A stretch of 10,915 nt of DNA. Source: an uncultured Faecalibacterium sp. GTDB taxonomy: Bacteria > Bacillota > Clostridia > Oscillospirales > Ruminococcaceae. This document shows, piece by piece, positions 1-9,629 of the stretch. The number at the start of each line of letters is the position of its first letter. Position 1 is the first letter of the stretch. Location: NCBI GenBank assembly GCA_934518555.1, contig CAKSXW010000065.1, positions 1 to 10,915 of the forward strand. Direction: 5' to 3'. The notes beneath the pieces are model-generated. The model was not told where the DNA came from. It ran no database searches and saw only the letters and a list, made by a program, of their open reading frames with translations. A program made the position numbers and the translations under genes.

Positions 1-1277
1 GGGATAGCAAGGCTGATGTCGGGGACGTAGGTCAGCAGCAGCAGTGCAATGAACATGCACAGGTAGAACGGCAGGGTGGCCTTGACCACCTTTTCCATGG
101 GGCGCTTTGCCACGGCAGAGCCGATGAACAGAACGGCGCCAACGGGAGGAGTCAGCAGGCCGATGCCGCAGTTCAGCACCACGATGATACCAAACTGGAT
201 GGGGTCGATGCCGATGGAGGTGGCGATGGGCAGCAGGATGGGGGTAGCGATCAGGATGATGGGAGCCATATCCATGATCATGCCCAGCACCAGCAGGATC
301 AGATCGATGAGCAGTGCGATGATGTAGGGGTTGTCGGTGAGGTCGGTGATGGCGTTAGCAGCCAGATCGGGCACGTGCAGGATGGTCAGGCAGTTGCCGA
401 ACACAGCAGAGGTGGCGATGAGGATCAGCACGATGGACAGGGTGTTGACGCACTCGTCCAGGGCGTGCCACACGCCCTTCCAGTCCAGGCCCTTGTAGAT
501 GAACACGGACACGAACAGGGAGTAGATAACAGCGATAGCAGCGGACTCGGTGGCGGTAAACACGCCGCCGACCACGCCGAACACCACGATGATAACAGCG
601 GCCAGAGCCCAGATAGAGGTGCCCAGCTGCTTGATGAAGCGCTTGATGCTGAAGGGATCACCCTTGGGGTAGTTGCGCTTTACAGAGATGATGTAGGAGC
701 CGATCATCAGCACGATGGCCAGCAGTGCGCCGGGCAGGTAACCTGCCAGGAACAGGCTGCCCACGGAGATACCACCGGCGGTGGTAGCGTAGATGACCAT
801 GTTGTGGCTGGGAGGAACCAGCAGGCCCTCGCAGGAGGAGGTGATGGTAACAGCGGTGGAGAAGTCGGCACCGTAGCCCTGGTCCACCATCATGGGGATC
901 ATGATGGAACCGATGGAAGCGGTATCGGCAGAGGCGGAACCGGAAATGCCGCCAAAGAAGTAGGAAGCCACGATGTTGACCATGGCCATGCCGCCCCGCA
1001 TCCAGCCCACGCAGGCGTCAGCCAGAGCGATGAGCTTTTCAGAGATGCCGCCGGAGCCCATGAGCACGCCCATGGTGATGAAGAAGGGAACTGCCATCAG
1101 GCTGAAGGAAGAAATGCCCTTGACCATCAGTCGGCAAACGTCGGTCAGTGCCTGGCCCTGCACCAGCATACACAGCACGCTGGACAGGCCAACGGCGTAG
1201 GCGATGGGGAAGCGCAGGAAGATCATGACGAAGAAGCTGACAAGAAGGACAATGATAGCCAGTGTCTGAGCTGTCAT
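1..1277 (-). CDS. dctM: TRAP transporter large permease (DctM family), 3' end cut by window
   Basis: Large membrane subunit of a tripartite ATP-independent periplasmic (TRAP) transporter; in this family it is the ion-coupled transport channel that accepts substrate from the binding protein. About 425 residues are visible from MTAQTLAIIV. The stop lies just outside the window, and families of this type are about 425-430 residues long, so only a few codons are missing. Family stretches seen: AVPFFITMG (about residues 62-70), GGISGSASADTASIGSIMIP (about 109-128), VPPSHNMVIYA, TATESAAIAV, LGMIMDMAPIIL and GLLTPPVGAVLF. The hydrophobic profile fits many membrane spans. The start is one base after the dctQ stop; its AAAGGAGG site lies inside the last dctQ codons, suggesting translational coupling. 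The neighbouring genes imply an acidic sugar as substrate, but that is inference. Confidence 0.95.
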   Translation of the reverse strand, partial: MTAQTLAIIVLLVSFFVMIFLRFPIAYAVGLSSVLCMLVQGQALTDVCRLMVKGISSFSLMAVPFFITMGVLMGSGGISEKLIALADACVGWMRGGMAMVNIVASYFFGGISGSASADTASIGSIMIPMMVDQGYGADFSTAVTITSSCEGLLVPPSHNMVIYATTAGGISVGSLFLAGYLPGALLAIVLMIGSYIISVKRNYPKGDPFSIKRFIKQLGTSIWALAAVIIVVFGVVGGVFTATESAAIAVIYSLFVSVFIYKGLDWKGVWHALDECVNTLSIVLILIATSAVFGNCLTILHVPDLAANAITDLTDNPYIIALLIDLILLVLGMIMDMAPIILIATPILLPIATSIGIDPIQFGIIVVLNCGIGLLTPPVGAVLFIGSAVAKRPMEKVVKATLPFYLCMFIALLLLTYVPDISLAI

Positions 1278-1278
1278 A

Positions 1279-1800
1279 TTACATTTCCTCCTTTACAAAA
1301 ATGCTCTTGATATGGTTGTACAGAGACTCGATCTCAAAGATGATCATGGCAACACCGGCCAGAGGCACCGGGAAGTACATCCAGAAGCGGCTCAGCCAGG
1401 GCATGGACACGTAGAAGCCACGGCCGCCCAGGGTGGTGGCGTAGTTCCAACCTATCACCATCATCACCACACCCAGGACCATCACGGCTACATCGGACAG
1501 GATGTCCAACACCTTGACCACTTTCTTGGGCAGGTACATATCAAAGGCAGTCATGCGGATGTGAGCACCACGGCGGATGGCCAGAGCGGCACTCAGCACT
1601 GCCATGTAGCTCATGCAGGTCAGGACGACCTCCTCAGACCAGGAGGGGTCCGGGATAAAGGGGACGTAACGGCCAATGACCGACATGGTGGTGATGAGGA
1701 TATCTGCGATCAGCAGGATCTTGCAGATAAACAGGACCACCTTGTAGGTAATGTCGTACGCCGGCTTGATCTTATCCAGAGTGGTAAAGATTTTCGGCAT
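1279..1800 (-). CDS. dctQ: TRAP transporter small permease (DctQ family)
   Basis: Small membrane subunit (173 residues) that pairs with DctM and helps dock the binding protein. Four hydrophobic segments are visible, at about residues 18-40, 57-76, 98-122 and 138-158, the standard DctQ topology. The family signature is present: a tryptophan followed by acidic residues before the second span (DPSWSEEVVL, W54, E56, E57), then a charged loop with RRGAHIR (R76, R77, H80). Length is normal for the family. The ATG has a GGAGG site (1808-1812) 7 bases upstream. The gene follows dctP after a 98-base gap that contains a terminator-like hairpin, and its stop is one base before the dctM start. Confidence 0.93.
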   Translation of the reverse strand: MPKIFTTLDKIKPAYDITYKVVLFICKILLIADILITTMSVIGRYVPFIPDPSWSEEVVLTCMSYMAVLSAALAIRRGAHIRMTAFDMYLPKKVVKVLDILSDVAVMVLGVVMMVIGWNYATTLGGRGFYVSMPWLSRFWMYFPVPLAGVAMIIFEIESLYNHIKSIFVKEEM

Positions 1801-1898: not shown

Positions 1899-2987
1899 TT
1901 ATGCCTTCATGTCCAGCAGCTTCTGGTACAGCTCAGCCTGATCGGAGGTGTTGTCGCTGATGACCTTGGCGCAAGCTTCCTGCCAGGGAGTCTTGTCGTC
2001 CACGTCCACCACGTTGCAGCCGGAAGAACGCAGCTCGTCCAGGACCTTGTTCTCAGCGGTCTCAGACAGCTCAGCGTTGAACTTCTGGGTGTCGGCAGCA
2101 GCAGCCATGACGGCAGCCTGCTGGTTAGCAGTCAGCTTGCCCCATGCGTTGTCGGTGATGACAGCCTGAACAGCACCCAGGGTGTGGCCGTCCAGGATCA
2201 GGTTGTTGGCAACCTCGGGGAAGGCGTTGGACTTGTAGTTTGCGATGGGCTGCTCAGCACCATCCACAACGCCGGTCTGCAGTGCGCTGTACAGCTCACC
2301 GAAGGAAACGACGGTGGGGTTAGCGCCCAGACCCTCGACCATGCCGTTCATAACGGGGTCGTTGGACACACGCAGCTTCAGGCCCTTGAAATCAGCGATG
2401 CCGGAAACAGGGTTGACCGTGAAGAAGTGACGGAAGCCCTCTTCGCCGTAGAAGACACCACGAACGGGCAGGCCCAGCTCCTGGGGCTCGTTCAGGAACT
2501 CAGGTGCCAGATCGCTGTTGGCAAAGTTCCAGAAGTGTGCACGGTTCTCAAAGGTGAAGGGGATGGACAGCAGCTTAGACTTGTTGCAGCCGTAGCTGGT
2601 CAGAGCGAAAGCAGAGATACGGCTGATGTCGATGGAGGTAGAGCCGCCCAGGATAGCGTCCAGAACGTCGTTCTCAGAGCCCAGCACGCCGGAAGCCTGC
2701 ACGTCAACCACAACAGAACCGCCGCTCAGCTCCTCGACCTTCTCCTTGAAGTGAGAACCGGTCTGGCCCACGATGGTGTCCAGGGGGTTGACCTCGGCGT
2801 AGACCAGGGTCACCTTGGGATCGTTGGCAGCAGCAGCGGCATCACCGGCAGCGGTGGAAGCGGTGGAAGCAGCAGCAGAGCTGGCAGGGGTGCTGGCGGC
2901 CTTGTCACCGCCGCAAGCGGTCAGAGCAACAGCTGCGGTAGCTGCGCCGGCAACAGCGAGAAAGCTACGACGAGAGATCTTCTTCAT
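1899..2987 (-). CDS. dctP: TRAP transporter solute-binding lipoprotein (DctP family)
   Basis: Extracytoplasmic binding protein (362 residues) that captures substrate for DctQM. The N-terminus has a twin-arginine-like SRRSFL (residues 5-10) and a lipobox LTAC with Cys25, so it is probably a Tat-type lipoprotein anchored to the membrane face. A low-complexity Ala/Ser/Thr linker (about 30-54) precedes the mature domain. DctP features: LVYAEVNPLD at the start of the domain, GVLGSENDV, GFRHFFT (R186), and GLKLRV with R206 at the position that in DctP proteins normally binds the ligand carboxylate, then VDGAEQPIANY (E245, N250). The ATG has an AAGGAGGA site (2996-3003) 8 bases upstream. It is the first gene of the dctPQM operon and has its own promoter and operator-like repeats. 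The carboxylate arginine supports an organic-acid or uronate ligand, but the exact ligand cannot be read from sequence. Confidence 0.94.
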   Translation of the reverse strand: MKKISRRSFLAVAGAATAAVALTACGGDKAASTPASSAAASTASTAAGDAAAAANDPKVTLVYAEVNPLDTIVGQTGSHFKEKVEELSGGSVVVDVQASGVLGSENDVLDAILGGSTSIDISRISAFALTSYGCNKSKLLSIPFTFENRAHFWNFANSDLAPEFLNEPQELGLPVRGVFYGEEGFRHFFTVNPVSGIADFKGLKLRVSNDPVMNGMVEGLGANPTVVSFGELYSALQTGVVDGAEQPIANYKSNAFPEVANNLILDGHTLGAVQAVITDNAWGKLTANQQAAVMAAAADTQKFNAELSETAENKVLDELRSSGCNVVDVDDKTPWQEACAKVISDNTSDQAELYQKLLDMKA

Positions 2988-3075
2988 AATTTGTGTCCTC
3001 CTTGATGTTCAGGTGGTTCTTTTTTTCAGGCAGCCGGGTTTCACAGGAGCCAGCTGTCATTCATGCACTATTCAC

Positions 3076-3104
3076 ACTTTAACAAATTTTTGAATTTTAC
3101 ACAA
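3076..3104 (-). promoter_or_regulatory. Predicted promoter of dctPQM
   Basis: On the minus strand, -35 TTGTGT (3104-3099), a 17-base spacer, and -10 TAAAGT (3081-3076) preceded by TG one base upstream (extended -10). The start of transcription would be near 3069, giving a leader of about 80 bases. The -35 is a poor match to TTGACA, as expected for a promoter needing an activator. Its spacing matches the promoter at 6106-6134, which raises confidence in both. Confidence 0.65.
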
Positions 3105-3108
3105 GGGA

Positions 3109-3142
3109 TTTCAAAAAATGTCCTGTTTTTTGAAAGAATGTC
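3109..3142 (-). promoter_or_regulatory. Tandem direct-repeat operator upstream of dctPQM
   Basis: Two half-sites read on the minus strand: GACATTCTTTCAAA (3142-3129) and GACATTTTTTGAAA (3122-3109). They match at 12 of 14 positions and repeat with a 20-bp period, about two helical turns on one face of the DNA. The proximal copy ends 4 bp before the -35 box. This is the usual placement of an AraC-type activator dimer, so the YesN-type regulator at 7318-8118 is the leading candidate. The same arrangement occurs at 6139-6172. Confidence 0.7.
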
Positions 3143-3161
3143 AAAAAAGTTATTGTGTAAG

Positions 3162-3191
3162 TGCACAAAGACTTTAAGTTCCATTTGTGCA
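3162..3191. repeat. Inverted repeat TGCACAAA / TTTGTGCA
   Basis: Perfect 8-bp arms, TGCACAAA at 3162-3169 and TTTGTGCA at 3184-3191, with a 14-base spacer. It lies about 20 bp upstream of the tandem repeats of the dctP promoter. No T-run follows on either strand, so an operator for a second regulator is more plausible than a terminator. A weaker GCAC...GTGC dyad sits in the comparable place at 6186-6204. Confidence 0.4.
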
Positions 3192-3238
3192 ACACTAACG
3201 TACAGATGGATACAACTTGCGGTCCAAGTGGCCCGGAA

Positions 3239-3294
3239 CTGCTCAGGCCCCGGCCGGTCTGCTGTGGGAGAGACCAACCGGGGCCCATGAGCAG
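3239..3294 (-). terminator. Large compound hairpin after the GH28-like gene, no U-tract
   Basis: Three nested stems: CTGCTCA/TGAGCAG (3239-3245 with 3288-3294), GGCCCCGG/CCGGGGCC (3246-3253 with 3278-3285) and GGTCT/AGACC (3256-3260 with 3271-3275), separated by a 2-base bulge and a 2-base internal loop. It begins 17 bases after the stop of the 900-residue gene. Neither strand has a T-run behind it, so it is not a canonical intrinsic terminator. A 3'-end stabiliser or a U-less terminator are the likely roles. Confidence 0.5.
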
Positions 3295-3311
3295 GCAGAA
3301 AACCGACAGGA

Positions 3312-6014
3312 TCACGCCACGGTGATCTTAACGGTCTTGCTTACGGGGATGACACCGTCGTCCAGGGTAAAGGTGACCTTGTAGGTGCCCTTGGCCTTGG
3401 GGGTGAAGGTGAGGGTGTGAGAGCCGGCGTCAAAGGATGCGCCCAGGGGCAGCAGACCTGCGGTGCCGTAGGTCAGGCCGCCGTCCAGTGCCTCGATAAC
3501 GGCAGCAGGCTGGGGCTGGGTGGTACGGACGCCGTTGGCCGGGTTCCGGCCCGAGACCGTCAGGGTCAGGGTCTGGCCCAGCTGGACGGTCTGGTCCCCG
3601 ATGTAGCTGAAGTAGGGGCGGTGCACCGTCAGAGGCAGGGGGTACTCCTGGGTCGGAATGGCGAACTGATAGCCATTCTCCGGGATAGGCAGGCGGATAT
3701 CGCCATAGAGGCTGTCTGCCGGGGTGCCGGGGGCCGGGGTGTCCACGGTGACCTGTTCACGGCTCAGCAGGCCCAGCTTCAGGTTCTCGCAGGTGGTGGT
3801 GAAATAAGGCTCATCGGGCACATACTCGTTGCCCACATGACGCTTGTAGTGGTTGGTCACGGTGACCACCGTCTTGACGCCCAGGGCGGTCTTGGCTGCC
3901 ACGGTACGCAGGTCGGCGTTGGAAACGTCATCCAGCACGATGGCCGGGCGCTTATCCTGGATCACATAGTTCAGGGCCACATTCTGCAGCACCAGACCCT
4001 CTACGTGACGGGCGTAGATGCCGTAGGCCGGCAGGATGCCCAGGATGGAGGGCTCGGGGTACTCGGCTACCATCTCCGGCACATTGTAGGGGTCGTCTAC
4101 CCAGGTGCCGTTCTTCCAGGCCACACGGGGCAGCAGGCCTTCGCACTTGCTGAAGAAGGTGTTCACCAGCCAGGGCAGCTTCTGCACAGTGGGGGCAGAA
4201 CCGCTCTGGGAGTAGACCCAGTAGGTGCCCAGCTGCCGCTGCTCCACGGCCTCCTGGAGGGACAGGCCGCCACGGTACTGCACCGAGATGTTCCGCAGGA
4301 TCACGTTCTTCACCTTGCTGTCCACCAGGCCCTCCAGCAGGATGGGGTACCGGGGATCCACGTTGGTGATGCGGATGTTGCTGATCTCCACGTTGCTGAC
4401 GCTGGCCAGGTCCTTGGCAGCGGTGGCATTGGCGTAGTAGACAGCGTCCTTCTGGCTGATTTCCCGGGTCATATCCGGCACATACTGGTGCTGGGCATCA
4501 TCCCAGCGGTAGAGGTACAGCTTGCCGTCGATCTGTGCCAGGTTGGCGTTGTTGATGCGGGTGGGGTTGGCAGGGTCTACCACCTTAAAGGAGGAGATAC
4601 CGTCGATGGAAACGGTCTTGCTCTTATTATAGGAGGGGCTGTAGCGGGCCACGGGGTACAGCTGATACTCGGCACGGTTGGGCAGCACCCAGCCGGAATT
4701 GTCCAGACGCACATCGTTGGCGGCGTTGATGGCCTGCTCGGTGGTGTGGCCGGTGACAGGGTACCGGGCACGATCGCCCACCCGGATAAAGATGGGAGAG
4801 GAGGAGACGGTGTCCATGGTGCAGTCGGTCATCACGATGTTGGTGAGGGAGCTGCCGTCCACGGCCTCCATGCAGAAGCCACGGGAACGCTCGAACCGCA
4901 CCCGGGTGATGGTGACGGTGTGGTAGCCGCAGGTGGACTCGGTGCCAAACTTGACACGGGCGGTGGGGCCGCAGGCGTCGGTGGCCACGATCTTATCGGT
5001 GGTGCAGGCTCCGGTGATCACAGACCCGGCATCGTAGCCGCTGACCACACAGTCCTCGATCAGGACGTTCTGGGTGGGCATGAACACCCCGGCACCGTAG
5101 GAGGCCTTCATGACGATGGCGTCGTCGGTAAGGGAGTTGAAGTGGCTGTTGCGGACGGTAACGTCCTGGGTGCAGTCGATGTTGTAGGCGTCCCGGTTGG
5201 TGTCCACGATCAGGTCGTTGACGGTCATGTTCCGGGTGCCCTCGGCGATAATGGCAAAGTGGCCGCCGTTCAGGATGCGGATGCCGTCCAGCACCACGTT
5301 CTCGCAGCGCACCAGTGCAATGGCCTTGTTGCCGTACCAGGTGGCGCTGTGGCCCCGGTCGGTGCGGTTCTTGGGGTTGGAGGGGTCGTTGCCGGACAGC
5401 ACATTGATAAGGGTGCCGGTGTCGTCCATGTAGCTGCCGTCGATGAGGCCCTCGCCGTAGATCATGATATCGTGCTTGTCGGCGGCGTAGAACAGGCTGT
5501 TGGCAAAGTAGGTGTGGCCGTGGTCCTGGAGACCGGCGTAGAGGTTCACTTCCGGCTCATCGTAGTTTCCGCCCTCGCCTACCATGGTCTGGTTGCCATA
5601 CCAGTCGTACAGGTCTGCCCGGGCAGCCCGGATGATGCCGTTGGCGTCGATGCGGAGGTTGACGCCGCTCTGGAGCCGGATGGTGTAGCTCTTAAAGTCA
5701 CCTGCCGGCACCACCACGGTGCCGCCGCCGGCCTCACTGGCAGCCTGGATGGCGGCGTTGATGGCCTTGGTGTTCTGGATGGGGTCCCCCTCCGAAACAG
5801 CACCAAAATCTGTAATGAGGTACAGGCGGCTCTCGTTCAGCAGGACGCTTTTGTCCACGGTGCTGCCGGTGGCCCGGGGGATGTTCAGGGTCTGGAAGCA
5901 GTTCTCCTCTGCCGTATCCTCTGCGGCAAAGGCAGGCAGGCCCATGGCGGCCATGGCGGTGGTCACAGCACTGACCTTCAGAAAGCTGCGGCGCGAAATC
6001 TTTTTGGAAAGCAT
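3312..6014 (-). CDS. Secreted GH28-like right-handed beta-helix glycosidase with C-terminal Ig-like domain
   Basis: Predicted exported polysaccharide-active enzyme of 900 residues, probably acting on pectin or rhamnogalacturonan. The N-terminus has twin-arginine SRRSFLK (7-13), a hydrophobic stretch and a likely cleavage after AFA (residue 30); there is no lipobox. Then follow a pectin-lyase-like start (ITDFGAVSEGDPIQNTKAIN, about 67-86), YGEGLIDG (186-193) and beta-helix coils. Counterparts of GH28 catalytic aspartates are NRDAYNID (D275, D280) and TDDAIVMK (D297, D298). The usual GHG histidine is replaced by GYDAG (326-330); I recall this variant in a rhamnogalacturonidase-like GH28 branch. 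Further on are PEPSILGILPAYG and RPAIVLDDV, also typical of that branch. Residues about 800-900 resemble a putative Ig (He_PIG) domain with LPLGASFD and GTYKVTFTLDDG. The start at 6014 is chosen because AAGGAGG lies 9 bases upstream; a longer reading to 6134 would run through the promoter. Substrate is inferred. Confidence 0.85.
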   Translation of the reverse strand: MLSKKISRRSFLKVSAVTTAMAAMGLPAFAAEDTAEENCFQTLNIPRATGSTVDKSVLLNESRLYLITDFGAVSEGDPIQNTKAINAAIQAASEAGGGTVVVPAGDFKSYTIRLQSGVNLRIDANGIIRAARADLYDWYGNQTMVGEGGNYDEPEVNLYAGLQDHGHTYFANSLFYAADKHDIMIYGEGLIDGSYMDDTGTLINVLSGNDPSNPKNRTDRGHSATWYGNKAIALVRCENVVLDGIRILNGGHFAIIAEGTRNMTVNDLIVDTNRDAYNIDCTQDVTVRNSHFNSLTDDAIVMKASYGAGVFMPTQNVLIEDCVVSGYDAGSVITGACTTDKIVATDACGPTARVKFGTESTCGYHTVTITRVRFERSRGFCMEAVDGSSLTNIVMTDCTMDTVSSSPIFIRVGDRARYPVTGHTTEQAINAANDVRLDNSGWVLPNRAEYQLYPVARYSPSYNKSKTVSIDGISSFKVVDPANPTRINNANLAQIDGKLYLYRWDDAQHQYVPDMTREISQKDAVYYANATAAKDLASVSNVEISNIRITNVDPRYPILLEGLVDSKVKNVILRNISVQYRGGLSLQEAVEQRQLGTYWVYSQSGSAPTVQKLPWLVNTFFSKCEGLLPRVAWKNGTWVDDPYNVPEMVAEYPEPSILGILPAYGIYARHVEGLVLQNVALNYVIQDKRPAIVLDDVSNADLRTVAAKTALGVKTVVTVTNHYKRHVGNEYVPDEPYFTTTCENLKLGLLSREQVTVDTPAPGTPADSLYGDIRLPIPENGYQFAIPTQEYPLPLTVHRPYFSYIGDQTVQLGQTLTLTVSGRNPANGVRTTQPQPAAVIEALDGGLTYGTAGLLPLGASFDAGSHTLTFTPKAKGTYKVTFTLDDGVIPVSKTVKITVA

Positions 6015-6105
6015 TTCAATTTTCCTCCTTCTTGCTTGGCACGATCTGAATTTTGATGGGGTACAGTTTGGGTGGTTTTGCACGGCCCGATTGTTTGGTA
6101 GCTTG

Positions 6106-6134
6106 ATTGTAGTGCAAAAAAATTTAGCCAGCAA
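6106..6134 (-). promoter_or_regulatory. Predicted promoter of the GH28-like gene
   Basis: On the minus strand, -35 TTGCTG (6134-6129), a 17-base spacer and -10 TACAAT (6111-6106). Transcription would start near 6099, leaving a leader of about 85 bases before the ATG at 6014. The spacer length and the 4-bp distance from the upstream direct repeat equal those of the dctP promoter. Confidence 0.68.
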
Positions 6135-6138
6135 GAGG

Positions 6139-6172
6139 ATTGATAAAATGTCCTAATTTTTGTAAAAAAGTG
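6139..6172 (-). promoter_or_regulatory. Tandem direct-repeat operator upstream of the GH28-like gene
   Basis: Proximal half-site GACATTTTATCAAT (6152-6139) and a weaker distal half-site CACTTTTTTACAAA (6172-6159), 20 bp apart, read on the minus strand. The proximal copy shares AGGACATTTT with the dctP site. The 35-base blocks 3102-3136 and 6132-6166 agree at about 26 positions without gaps by eye. The element lies 4 bp before the -35 box, as at dctP. It suggests common control of the two units by one AraC-type activator. Confidence 0.68.
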
Positions 6173-6241
6173 AAAAAATGGCTGTGCACTTTCCATGAAT
6201 GTGCCTGGGGAGAATTAGCGGTTCTGCCGAAAAAAGGCTGC

Positions 6242-6283
6242 AAAAAAACTCGCCTCTAAACTGATATATCACATAGAGGCGAG
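6242..6283 (-). terminator. Intrinsic terminator of the kinase-regulator-binding protein operon
   Basis: On the minus strand CTCGCCTCTA (6283-6274) pairs perfectly with TAGAGGCGAG (6258-6249), and TTTTTTT (6248-6242) follows at once. It lies 21 bases after the stop of the solute-binding gene. It separates the signalling operon from the promoter region of the GH28-like gene. Confidence 0.93.
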
Positions 6284-6304
6284 CTATTTCGTATATTCTG
6301 TTCT

Positions 6305-7321
6305 TCAGCTCTCCCGGATCCGCTGGATCAGGTCTGCCTGGCTGCGGAATCGGTCGTACATGGGCTGCACCGCCTGGCGGAATTTCTCCTTTTCTTCCTC
6401 CGACAAGGTGGTCACATCCACCCCCCAGGCCCGGAGGCTGGCCTCGGACTGGGCCTCCTGCTGGGCCCACAGGCGGCGCTCGGTACGGGCAGAGGCCCGG
6501 GCACACTCCCGGAGGATCTCCGGGAAGCTCTGGTCCAGGGCCGCCAGCTTTTCCAGGGCTGCCGGGCTGGCCAGCTGCACCTCCGGCACCCGGGTGTGCT
6601 CGTCCTGCAAAAAGTAGGGGGCTACCTCGTAGTGGCCCATGGTGTCGTAGCTGGGCCAGTTGTTTTCGGCCCCGTCGATCTGGGCATTGTGGAGGGCGGC
6701 GTAGACCTGGCTGTACACGATCTGCACCGGGTCTGCCCCCAGGGAGGTGATCAACTCGCTCATCAGGTCCGATTCCTGGACCCGGAGGCTCAGGCCCTGG
6801 AGGTCTGCCAGGCAGGTGACCTTTTGCCGGGTGTAGAAGCTCCGGACCCCGGCGTCGAACCAGGAAAGGCCCGTAAGGCCCAAAGTGTCCAGTTGGGCCA
6901 GAAATTCGTCCCCAATGTCCCCGTCCAGCACACGCCACATCTGGGCGGCGTCCTTGTACAGGTAAGGCAGCTGCAATACGCTGAGGCTGGGGATGTACTC
7001 TGCCAGGGGGCTCAGGGATACCCGGCTGAAGTCGATGCCCCCAAACTGCATCTGCTGCAGCACGCTTTGTTCGGCCCCCAGCTCACCGCCGCTGTACACC
7101 ACGATCTTTACCCGGCCCTGGGTCTTTTCGTTCACCTGCTGGGCAAAGGCCAGGGCGGCCTGGGTGGTGGGGTAGTCCTCCGGCTGGTTTTCGGCGTACC
7201 GCAGGATCAGCTCCGGCCCGGTGTCCGTTTCCGGCTCCGGGCTGGCGTTACAGCTGCAAAGGCCCAGGGCGGCTCCGGCAGCGGCCAGCAGCACCTGCCG
7301 CCGGGTCACCCGGCGGCTCAC
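6305..7321 (-). CDS. DctP-like solute-binding lipoprotein, probable ligand sensor partner of the YesM-type kinase
   Basis: Extracytoplasmic TRAP-family binding protein (338 residues). Signal: two Arg pairs (RR at 3-4 and 7-8, TRRQVLL), a hydrophobic core and a lipobox-like LCSC with Cys24. DctP features: LRYAENQPEDYP near residue 40, SGGELGAEQSVLQQ, GVRSFYT (R160), GLSLRV with the carboxylate-binding arginine R180, and IDGAENNWPSY (E219, N220, N221). It aligns along its length with the DctP at 1899-2987 but is clearly divergent. The ATG overlaps the stop of the response regulator by 4 bases, a terminator follows it, and no permease genes are attached. That context suggests a sensing role, presenting ligand to the kinase ectodomain, as XylFII does for LytS. 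It could also feed the DctQM at 1-1800; sequence alone cannot exclude this. Confidence 0.88.
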   Translation of the reverse strand: MSRRVTRRQVLLAAAGAALGLCSCNASPEPETDTGPELILRYAENQPEDYPTTQAALAFAQQVNEKTQGRVKIVVYSGGELGAEQSVLQQMQFGGIDFSRVSLSPLAEYIPSLSVLQLPYLYKDAAQMWRVLDGDIGDEFLAQLDTLGLTGLSWFDAGVRSFYTRQKVTCLADLQGLSLRVQESDLMSELITSLGADPVQIVYSQVYAALHNAQIDGAENNWPSYDTMGHYEVAPYFLQDEHTRVPEVQLASPAALEKLAALDQSFPEILRECARASARTERRLWAQQEAQSEASLRAWGVDVTTLSEEEKEKFRQAVQPMYDRFRSQADLIQRIRES

Positions 7322-8118
7322 AGCAGCCCCTCCGGGGGCTGCTCCCGGCTCACCCGGCGCCGGTACTGGGTAGGGGTCTCTCCGGTGCGCTTTTTAAAGG
7401 CCCGGGCAAAGTAGCTGGCGTCCTCGTAGCCCACCATGGAGGCTACCTCTGCCGAGGAGCGGAAGGGGTCCGTCAGCAGCTCCTTGGCGGCGTTGATCCG
7501 CAGCTCCGTGAGGCAATCCAAAAAGTTCATCTTCTGGTATTTTTTGAACTGGGCCGACAGGTAGGCAGGGCTGATGTGGAGGATGGCGCTGACGCTGTCC
7601 AGGGAAAGGTCGAACATATAGTTGTCCTCCAGGTAGCGGCGCACATGGGCCATGACCAGGGCGTTCTGGTCGCTTTCCTTTTCCTCTGCGGCAGGGGTGG
7701 CAGGCTCCGGCTCCACCGGGGCCAGGGACTCCAGCCGCCGCTCGGTCTCCAGCTGCCGTATGGCCCGGCGGATGGAGGCCTCCAGCTCGTCGGGGTCCAC
7801 AGGCTTCAGCAGGTAATCGCAGGCCCCCAGGTGCACCGCCTCGTGGGCGTACTGGAACAGGCTGTAGGCGGTGACAAAGATCACCCGGCAGCCGGGGCGC
7901 TGGGCCAGCACAGCCCGGGCGGCATCCAGGCCGCTCATGCCGGGCATCTCGATGTCCATCAGGATCAGGTCGGCTCCCCACAGAATGGCCTTGTCGGCGG
8001 CCTGGCGGCCGTTTTCCGCTGTTTCCACCGCCACTTCGTGCTCAAACCGATGGGTGACGATGTCCGTCAGGGCAATGCGCTCCAACCGCTCGTCATCGGC
8101 GATCAACAGGCGTATCAT
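7318..8118 (-). CDS. Response regulator, receiver plus AraC-type DNA-binding domain (YesN-like)
   Basis: Cytoplasmic transcription regulator of 266 residues. The receiver domain is about residues 1-120: acidic pocket D8-D9 (LIADDE), phosphoacceptor D55 in LILMDIEMPG, T83 in FVTAY and K105 in YLLKPVDP. A short linker rich in Glu, Pro and Ala (about 128-150) leads to an AraC-type double helix-turn-helix at about 155-258, with LSLDSVSAILHISPAYLSAQ as the first helix-turn-helix and SSAEVASMVGYEDASYFARA as the second. All expected receiver residues are present. The gene overlaps the kinase stop by 4 bases (ATGA) and its own stop overlaps the binding-protein start in the same way, so the three are co-translated. 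Probable targets are the tandem repeats at 3109-3142 and 6139-6172; this is inferred from site geometry and proximity. Confidence 0.95.
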   Translation of the reverse strand: MIRLLIADDERLERIALTDIVTHRFEHEVAVETAENGRQAADKAILWGADLILMDIEMPGMSGLDAARAVLAQRPGCRVIFVTAYSLFQYAHEAVHLGACDYLLKPVDPDELEASIRRAIRQLETERRLESLAPVEPEPATPAAEEKESDQNALVMAHVRRYLEDNYMFDLSLDSVSAILHISPAYLSAQFKKYQKMNFLDCLTELRINAAKELLTDPFRSSAEVASMVGYEDASYFARAFKKRTGETPTQYRRRVSREQPPEGLL

Positions 8119-9629
8119 TCCTCAAATTCCTCCTCTTCCTCAAGCTCCACCAGGGGCAGATACAGGCTTACGGCAGTGCCCAGCCCCGGCCGGGAGCGGA
8201 TCTCGAACCGACAGCGCTTATCCAGCAGCTTCAGCCGGGCTGCCACGTTGTACACGCCGATGTGCTCCCAGCGGTCCCCGGGGCTGGCCAGACCGGCTTG
8301 CAGCTGGGCCAGCTGCTCCGGGGCGATGCCCTGGCCGTTATCACAGACATTGATCCGCAGCAGCTTTTGCTGCCGCAAGGGGGTGATGCGGATCCGCACG
8401 GCACCCCCTTCTTCCTTGGGGCCGATGCCGTGCTTGAAGGCGTTTTCCACAATGGGCTGCAGGATGAACGAGGGCACCATGGTCTCGGTCAGGTCCAGGG
8501 AATCGGAGATGCGCCACCGCATCCGGATCCGGGCCCCAAAGCGCACATGGTAGATGGAGTAATACTCGTCCACGATCCGCACCTCCCGGGCCAGGGGCAC
8601 CTGCTCGTCGTTGCTCATGAGGCTGTAGCGCAGCAGGTGGCTCAGGGCGGTGATCAGGGCCTGGGTGCGGTAGGCGGCCTCCTGGCCGGCGGTCTGCAGG
8701 ATCACGTTCAGGGTGTTGAACAAAAAGTGGGGGTCGATCTGGCTGCGGAGCTGCTGCAACCGGCTGCGCTCCATACGGGTCTGCAGCTCCAGGGCCTGGG
8801 TCTTTTGCTGGTGCAGCTCCCGTTCCATCTCGTTTTTCTCACGCAGGGTGCTCATCTGCTGGGCCATGGAGTGCTTCATCCGGTTAAAGGCGTCGGTGAG
8901 CTGGCCGATCTCGTCACCCTGGTGAGGCAGGGGCACATCCGGGGTGTCGTAATGGCCGCTGATGATGGCCCGGGAAGCCACGATCATCTGCTGCACCGGC
9001 CCCAAAAGCCGCAGCACCAGCCAGGCCATGATGCAGCCCAGGGCCAGGCACACGGTGGTCACCACGGTCTGGGCCCATTTGACCCGGGTACTGCGGACCG
9101 AGATCTCGGTGTAGATGCTCTGGGCGTCGGCAATGGCAATGTTCAGCAGCTGCTGGGTGTACTGGCTCAGGTAGCTGCCGCAGGGCTTTACCTGGCTGTA
9201 ATACAGCTGGGATGCCTGGGCGTCGTCCCCGGCCCGTACCGCCGCCTCCAGCTGCTCCACCAGGCCGGTGTAGCTTTTGTAGGTGGTGCACACGGCATTG
9301 TACAGCAGGTATTCCTCCTGGCTCACGGTGTGGATGTCTCCGTTGATGCGCCACAGCCAGGCGTTGGTGACGGAAAAAGCCCCCTCCAGCCCGGAAAGGA
9401 ACTCCTGGGTGTCGCCGTACTCCCAGCGGTAGCTGTTCAGTACCGTAAGGCTCTTTTCTACGCCGCCCTGGAACCGGCTGATGGCGTTGAAGTTGCCCAA
9501 TTGGTCATCCAGCTGCCGCAGCACGGTGCCGGACTGGTAAAAGCTGAGAAAGATCTGGGCGGCCAACGCCAGCAGAAAAGCGGCCAGCCCCAGGCTGATC
9601 CGCTGCTTCAGGGTCATGGTTCGGGCCAC
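8115..9629 (-). CDS. Membrane sensor histidine kinase (YesM/LytS type)
   Basis: Sensor kinase of 504 residues that should phosphorylate the regulator encoded just downstream. Domains in order: membrane span 1 (about 11-31), an extracytoplasmic region of about 150 residues (32-185) without a domain I recognise, span 2 (about 186-208), HAMP-like linker (about 209-262), a helical segment likely to be coiled coil (about 262-296), the His_kinase domain with phosphoacceptor H301 in QIDPHFLFNTLN, and an HATPase domain with the N-box QPIVENAFKHG (N396), VCDNGQGI (D430) and GVYNVAARL. The tail is strongly acidic (VELEEEEEFEE). The start is GTG at 9629, because AAGGAGGG (9636-9643) is 6-7 bases upstream; the ATG at 9617 would be 19 bases away. 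The ectodomain is the likely docking surface for the binding protein of the same operon. Confidence 0.95.
   Translation of the reverse strand: MARTMTLKQRISLGLAAFLLALAAQIFLSFYQSGTVLRQLDDQLGNFNAISRFQGGVEKSLTVLNSYRWEYGDTQEFLSGLEGAFSVTNAWLWRINGDIHTVSQEEYLLYNAVCTTYKSYTGLVEQLEAAVRAGDDAQASQLYYSQVKPCGSYLSQYTQQLLNIAIADAQSIYTEISVRSTRVKWAQTVVTTVCLALGCIMAWLVLRLLGPVQQMIVASRAIISGHYDTPDVPLPHQGDEIGQLTDAFNRMKHSMAQQMSTLREKNEMERELHQQKTQALELQTRMERSRLQQLRSQIDPHFLFNTLNVILQTAGQEAAYRTQALITALSHLLRYSLMSNDEQVPLAREVRIVDEYYSIYHVRFGARIRMRWRISDSLDLTETMVPSFILQPIVENAFKHGIGPKEEGGAVRIRITPLRQQKLLRINVCDNGQGIAPEQLAQLQAGLASPGDRWEHIGVYNVAARLKLLDKRCRFEIRSRPGLGTAVSLYLPLVELEEEEEFEE

Follow-up and report, generated by a model that had tools for sequence, protein, structure and literature searches.

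The window analysed here is the whole 10,915-bp stretch of contig CAKSXW010000065.1 from an uncultured Faecalibacterium sp., the minus strand of which carries, in this order, pckA (cut), yesM, yesN, dctP2, a gene for a GH28-type enzyme, and dctP, dctQ and dctM, the last three coding for a tripartite ATP-independent periplasmic (TRAP) transporter. The promoters in front of the GH28-type gene and in front of dctPQM each contain a tandem direct repeat next to the -35 box, and it is quite probable, judging from comparison of related genomes, that these repeats are operators of the adjacent YesN regulator, controlling the TRAP operon and, in a few genomes, an exported GH28 enzyme. The features of the window are the following (HTH, helix-turn-helix; Tat, twin-arginine translocation).

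8115..9629, minus strand: YesM-type sensor histidine kinase (Pfam His_kinase, HAMP, HATPase_c)
7318..8118, minus strand: YesN-type response regulator with a receiver and an AraC double HTH, the proposed binder of the sites (Pfam Response_reg, HTH_18, HTH_AraC)
6305..7321, minus strand: DctP2, TRAP solute-binding lipoprotein, the proposed uronate sensor (Pfam DctP; lipobox found by eye)
6250..6286, minus strand: terminator-like hairpin with a T-run behind it, downstream of dctP2 (fold of 6236-6300)
6159..6172, minus strand: distal half-site of the GH28 promoter, CACTTTTTTACAAA, weak (read from sequence)
6139..6152, minus strand: proximal half-site of the GH28 promoter, GACATTTTATCAAT (read from sequence)
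6106..6134, minus strand: GH28 promoter, -35 TTGCTG, 17-bp spacer, -10 TACAAT (read from sequence)
3312..6014, minus strand: beta-helix enzyme with a Tat signal, of the GH28 / rhamnogalacturonidase kind (Pfam, NCBIfam)
3129..3142, minus strand: distal half-site of the TRAP promoter, GACATTCTTTCAAA (sequence; conserved over 14 loci)
3109..3122, minus strand: proximal half-site of the TRAP promoter, GACATTTTTTGAAA (sequence; conserved over 14 loci)
3076..3104, minus strand: TRAP promoter, -35 TTGTGT, 17-bp spacer, -10 TAAAGT (sequence; -10 invariant over 14 loci)
3031..3056, minus strand: hairpin in the TRAP 5′-leader with CCTGTG in the loop (single-sequence folds, stem search)
1899..2987, minus strand: DctP, transport solute-binding protein (Pfam)
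1279..1800, minus strand: DctQ, small permease (Pfam)
3..1277, minus strand: DctM, large permease, extending beyond the window (Pfam, NCBIfam)

All the coordinates and distances given for the two promoters in an earlier note on this DNA were reproduced from the letters. In the TRAP promoter the half-sites at 3142-3129 and 3122-3109 are followed by TCCC, the -35 box at 3104-3099 and the -10 box at 3081-3076, and in the GH28 promoter those at 6172-6159 and 6152-6139 are followed by CCTC, the -35 box at 6134-6129 and the -10 box at 6111-6106, with the gap between the inner half-site and the -35 box being 4 bp in both cases. The end of the AGGACAT core lies 131 bases before the ATG at 2987 and 134 bases before the ATG at 6014. 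The half-site comprises 14 bases, and the consensus written in the note, GACATTYTTTNNAAA, had to be shortened by one letter. A simple promoter scan reported neither the TRAP nor the GH28 promoter, and a repeat finder listed nothing in either promoter region. A scan allowing up to six substitutions revealed no tandem site in the window besides the TRAP and GH28 pair.

In the TRAP intergenic region the self-match at 20 bp amounts to 12 of 14 bases, the highest value among periods from 15 to 30; in the GH28 region it is 9 of 14, and 6 of the 16 periods, 20 included, reach at least 9. Compared with each other without gaps, the two promoters share 24 of 30, 31 of 40 and 36 of 48 bases, which was attained by none of 1000 dinucleotide shuffles at any of the three lengths (the best of 1000 shuffled pairs over 40 bp had 26 matches against the 31 observed), so the likeness between the two window promoters is beyond chance.

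The pattern ACNTTNTTNNNAAAANNAGGACATTTT was searched for in 31 genomes of the genus and matched exactly at 16 places in 13 genomes, at no place with one or two mismatches and at 19 with three. The last were taken as chance matches because the reversed pattern, searched in the same genomes with up to three mismatches, gave 25; the 14 of the 19 that were inspected all lack a correctly spaced TTG, and visual inspection of the short frames revealed neither a TRAP nor a GH28 gene. The 16 exact matches consist of 13 in front of TRAP operons and three in front of GH28 genes, in line with the small set of targets that had been proposed, and all of them have TTG at the same register. A longer pattern comprising the tandem site and the -35 box in register, with up to three mismatches allowed, gave 17 matches against one for its reversed control: the 13 TRAP promoters match without a mismatch, the linked GH28 promoters with one and two, and an unlinked GH28 promoter with two. 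The remaining match, with three mismatches in genome G012, has a gene resembling phosphoglycerate mutase (by eye) downstream and was rejected as chance. In three genomes (loci L009, L013 and L026) CCACANTNTGNNNAAAATGTGGACATTTTG stands directly upstream of a gene which we take to be murQ-like, the frame being seen in L009 and L026; it is possibly the operator of another regulator.

The half-sites and their spacing, the conservation of which the earlier note had named as a check, are kept at the TRAP promoter in all 14 loci compared (the window and 13 genomes) and at the GH28 promoter in all three loci having that gene (the window, G001 and G002). In the two relatives the distal GH28 half-site reads CACTTTTTTG(T/C)AAA and the proximal one is identical to that of the window. 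The 20-bp period occurs in 17 TRAP or linked GH28 promoters, two of them from the window and 15 from other genomes, as well as in the unlinked site of G005. Loci L097 (G079) and L098 (G089) were excluded from the operator comparison, the former having a damaged dctP2-dctP junction and the latter lacking a downstream dctPQM match. The distal half-site reads ACATT in 14 of 14 TRAP promoters and ACTTT in four of four GH28 promoters (window, G001, G002, G005); for the differing threshold that the earlier note predicted at the glycosidase gene, this split between target classes is suggestive, with only two independent GH28 lineages represented.

The 13 genomes with exact sites are exactly those which encode YesN orthologues with 82-88% identity, and the tandem site lies between dctP2 and dctP in all of them, while exact sites are absent from the remaining 18. 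Diverged orthologues were found in G018 (66%) and G012 (56%), only a YesN paralogue with 35-37% identity in G006 and G026, and no YesN match at an E-value of 1e-40 in the other 14 genomes. Among the stretches taken from 15 genomes, the order yesM-yesN-dctP2-dctP-dctQ-dctM is kept in the 13 genomes with sites and in G018; the G012 locus runs out at the contig end. It is conceivable that another regulator, either the second YesN-like protein with 35-37% identity or a general sugar regulator, binds the sites and that yesN is near by accident, the sites of AraC-type proteins being hard to distinguish by sequence and a YesN-like paralogue being detected at E 1e-40 in 7 of the 13 genomes with sites. 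This is unlikely, given that the exact sites coincide with the yesN orthologue in 13 of 13 genomes and are missing from the other 18, that G006 and G026 have the paralogue and no exact site, and that G001, G005, G015, G016, G019 and G029 have sites and no paralogue at that threshold.

The first recognition-helix stretch of YesN, SPAYLSAQFKKYQK, is shared without change by nine aligned proteins from loci with the canonical site, the window included (one of them is altered immediately beyond it), and is different in G018, G012 and G079. G018 and G012 also have a changed core upstream of the -35 box (GTATATT and GCATATATT), its distance being unaltered; alignment there is possible for this position alone, with 5-6 mismatches of 19, and at this weak level of site match the pattern fits a joint change of recognition helix and core.

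The window enzyme scores above the cut-off for Pfam TAT_signal, Beta_helix and Pect-lyase_RHGA_epim, reaches 19.9 bits against Pfam GH28, just under the cut-off of 22.9, and 427 bits against the NCBIfam model for BT4146-type rhamnogalacturonidase, under the cut-off of 500. It shares 98-99% identity with proteins of two Faecalibacterium prausnitzii strains. Enzymes of this type were found in 2 of the 31 genomes, and only in these two, G001 and G002, does such a gene with a site of its own sit between dctP2 and dctP. At the DNA level the coding region (3312-6014) is 96-97% identical to those of G001 and G002, with yesM, yesN, dctP2 and the aligned intergenic parts showing 75-83% and dctP, dctQ and dctM 91-94%; the GH28 gene may have been exchanged between species through recombination.

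G005 contains another exact site, 39 kb away from its first one, in front of a frame that codes for a Tat-type signal and for a GH28 domain scoring 98.2 bits, a passing score; the nearest NCBIfam model is alpha-D-galacturonidase BT4155, under its cut-off. This enzyme shares only 27% identity with the window enzyme over 380 alignment columns, and the geometry of its promoter nevertheless matches that of the others (20-bp period, 19 bp from GG to the TTG of the -35 box, 17-bp spacer, -10 TATACT). No other single observation carries as much weight, linkage being no explanation for it, though it is one case. Three genomes devoid of a YesN orthologue, G008, G010 and G013, encode relatives of the G005 enzyme with no site in front of them (best 4-5 mismatches of 19 fixed bases). 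These three homologues (loci L081, L082 and L080) have another conserved sequence in common upstream, AAAATGTTATGAA...GACTTTTTGTGTATCGAA, which may be a site for another regulator.

The 14 TRAP promoters show where conservation lies. Their mean pairwise identity is 87% in the distal half-site, 98% in the linker, 91% in the proximal half-site and 100% in the -10 box, and AGGACAT is invariant. It could be proposed that the repeats are merely A+T-rich promoter sequence resembling an UP element, preserved by kinship of the strains with no regulator involved, the sites being rich in A/T runs and the genomes all belonging to one genus. We regard this as very improbable: around the invariant core the neighbouring sequence drifts to 53% mean pairwise identity in the preceding 68 bases and to 58% in the first 11 bases of the spacer, and the same core stands before the G005 and window GH28 genes despite their low identity.

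Several points weigh against YesN operators as the explanation of the repeats. Because the site and the regulator lie at the same locus, finding both together is no independent evidence, except for the unlinked G005 site. The internal repeat of the GH28 promoter, taken alone, is at chance level. The TRAP promoters of G018 and G012, which have diverged YesN orthologues, contain no match within three mismatches, and upstream of yesM no site was found in the window and six further loci, the best positions having 7-9 mismatches. A second relative of the G005 enzyme within G005 itself (31% identity) has no site, with 8 mismatches at best, and a Pfam GH28 search of the 13 genomes found 20 places, two of them with the site; the sited enzyme of G001 was missed by this search, and with it three of 21 places have the site. 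Finally, that YesN activates rather than represses is what we infer. The inventory of GH28 genes weakens the idea of a general GH28 regulon and fits one limited to exported enzymes: the common GH28 protein without a site starts with MNLSLIRSMTRSAV and has no export signal by eye (starts were read for a subset), and the sited enzymes seen, the window type and that of G005, carry a Tat-type signal. The site is thus associated with exported GH28 enzymes, as the idea of extracellular depolymerisation needs, albeit in small numbers, and the GH28 branch is accessory, with the window type in 2 of 31 genomes and the unlinked target in one. In G014 (L061, about 900-1400, plus strand) dctM is followed, within the same locus, by yet another GH28 gene (C4:999-1502) of opposite orientation, for which neither pattern found a site.

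Among 247 genomes sampled from the family, only G001 and G017, both having a YesN orthologue, contained exact sites. The search gave 14 rows in 13 of the genomes against 43 for the reversed control, and the 11 rows with one or two mismatches have no TTG in register and no TRAP or GH28 gene that could be recognised, with no downstream frame found for 4 of the 11. At the stringency used, the predicted regulon comprises one or two promoters in each genome, and weaker sites would escape. The proposal of the earlier note that the repeats bind YesN and define a small regulon is supported by these comparisons, binding by YesN being the predicted part of it.

The dctP2 gene is followed by a stretch (6236-6300) which folds at -24.7 kcal/mol with a z-score of -5.6 and is terminator-like; the hairpin at 6250-6286 would separate the GH28 gene from the yesMN-dctP2 operon. 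A very stable G+C-rich hairpin with no T-run also occurs past the GH28 stop codon (3239-3294, minus strand), the stretch 3225-3310 folding at -47.7 kcal/mol with a z-score of -4.0.

In the TRAP leader, the stem of the hairpin at 3031-3056 varies between species from 6 to 11 pairs (leaders L061-L073), while the loop keeps CC[C/T]GTG. The hairpin can be formed with at most one mismatch in all 12 leaders tested of the 14, and a strict scan found it in 11 of 14 leaders and at 5 other places in 325,577 bases. It rests on single-sequence folds and a stem search, with z-scores from -0.1 (L064) to -2.8; no consensus pairs emerged when 13 leader hairpins aligned with MAFFT were given to RNAalifold, and Rfam at the gathering score had no match in the window, L064, L066, L070 or L074. 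A conserved upstream open reading frame in the leader was considered and rejected, since the frames differ among species (by eye). The stretch at about 3055-3085 (minus strand), from just before the -10 box to about +20, which reads TTTGCTAAAGTGTGNACAGTNAATGAAC, has, with up to three mismatches allowed, a single occurrence in every one of the 13 yesN-bearing genomes and no occurrence in the 18 others, and its conservation exceeds the needs of a plain leader.

The dctP2 gene overlaps yesN by 4 bases, and its product shows 27-36% identity to DctP in local alignments. The best PDB matches of DctP2 are 4n8y, 4x8r, 4ovr and 4mhf/4mij (203-229 bits), and it has the motif ENNWPSY in common with the three best solved TRAP proteins, while transport DctP reaches at most 129 bits against any solved chain. 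The protein of 4MHF, Bpro_3107, is described as a binder of D-glucuronate and D-galacturonate (PMC7660916). In the predicted structure of YesM, the N-terminal third forms long helices (predicted local distance difference test about 70-92 for residues 31-180, predicted template modelling score 0.37) with no mixed sheet-helix ligand domain, at middling model confidence, and the best fold match of YesM in the PDB is the kinase domain of GanS from Geobacillus (36-38% identity). Because of the relatives of DctP2, the helices of YesM, the GanS match and the parallel with CuaDSR (see below), a three-component uronate sensor including DctP2 is moderately favoured. Against it stands the fact that sensing rather than transport by DctP2 is also something we infer.

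A possible, though less probable, arrangement is that DctP2 serves as a second transport receptor for the same DctQM and YesM senses the signal directly; DctP2 is indeed a full-length TRAP solute-binding protein, and a permease is nearby. On the other hand, dctP2 overlaps yesN and is then followed by the terminator-like hairpin, the only tandem sites revealed by the six-substitution scan of the window are those of the TRAP and GH28 promoters, and a plain-helix N-terminal third, as modelled with middling confidence, would suit a kinase reading a binding protein. A broader picture, which we regard as rather doubtful and put forward tentatively, is that a TRAP-type uronate-binding protein, and not one of the ATP-binding cassette (ABC) or tripartite tricarboxylate transporter kind, is the dedicated sensor of YesM-YesN, that the TRAP operon is the core target with exported GH28 enzymes, their genes bearing the operator, as add-on targets varying between species, and that the leader hairpin (loop CCYGTG) adds post-transcriptional control of TRAP.

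In the mechanism proposed for the YesN operators, phosphorylated YesN would bind the tandem half-sites in head-to-tail orientation along one face of the double helix, and the inner subunit would contact sigma at the -35 box and recruit the polymerase, switching on dctPQM and, where present, the exported pectin-type GH28 enzyme. Less certainly, DctP2 would load a galacturonate-like uronate and signal through YesM, so that pectin breakdown products would induce more depolymerase plus more uptake. The opposite action, in which YesN or another factor sits at the -35 box as a repressor and blocks RNA polymerase until the signal arrives, is improbable: the inner half-site, 4 bp from the -35 box, is near enough to interfere, but both -35 boxes (TTGTGT and TTGCTG) are poor past TTG, as those of an activated promoter would be, and CuaR and XydR, AraC-type response regulators with carbohydrate targets, are described as activators in the available text of the respective papers (PMC10384115, PMC3572039).

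With YesN as the candidate activator, a sharp operator and a named candidate regulator together provide a testable handle on the control of uronate uptake and of an exported pectin-type enzyme, with the same operator standing at two distantly related GH28 genes in different places. Faecalibacterium is a common gut butyrate producer which is hard to manipulate genetically, and the promoter could possibly be used as a uronate-responsive one if the sensing step is right.

A search of the open-access literature by title and the start of the abstract, with most subscription papers lying outside it, found nothing on this regulator, the site or a pectin regulon of Faecalibacterium. In class II activation by the AraC family, the tandem direct half-sites are about two helix turns apart and the inner one is at the -35 box. 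The same features are found here, namely a nearby regulator with a receiver and a double HTH, direct half-sites and an inner one at the -35 box, but the period is 20 bp compared to about 21 bp in class II sites, and the protein is a response regulator, unlike the sugar-binding AraC of the textbook case. GanPST and AraPST of Geobacillus stearothermophilus, each a sugar-binding protein with a kinase and an AraC-type regulator, act in the use of pectin side chains; they share with the present locus the layout of binding protein, kinase and AraC-type regulator, GanS also being the top fold match of YesM, and differ in having other sugars and not being of the TRAP type.

XydS/R of Clostridium cellulolyticum includes an AraC-type response regulator that governs plant-wall enzymes encoded at two distinct loci (PMC3572039), and resembles the present system in this two-locus control of enzymes and in having no site before the operon of the regulator itself. 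It differs in that the available text of the paper names no importer among the two described targets, mentions no solute-binding protein and reports that no consensus site could be defined.

CuaDSR of Ruminiclostridium cellulolyticum (PMC10384115) consists of the sensing solute-binding protein CuaD, the kinase CuaS and the YesN/AraC regulator CuaR, the sensing protein being distinct from the transport one, and systems with two solute-binding proteins are mentioned there for C. beijerinckii and G. stearothermophilus as well. The likeness comprises separate sensing and transport proteins, a solute-binding protein gene beside the two-component genes and an AraC-type response regulator. The target of CuaDSR is the cognate importer operon; here the conserved site is at dctPQM in 13 of 13 genomes with close YesN orthologues and unmatched in G018 and G012. 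Unlike CuaDSR with its ABC importer and cellobiose, the importer here is of the TRAP type and the substrate probably a uronate, and CuaR has 538 aa with a long middle part compared to the 266 aa of YesN; the main text of the CuaDSR paper contains neither the term 'binding site' nor 'promoter', and hence offers no operator for comparison. The elements of the present system are of known kinds, and the TRAP-type sensing protein may be an undescribed variant.

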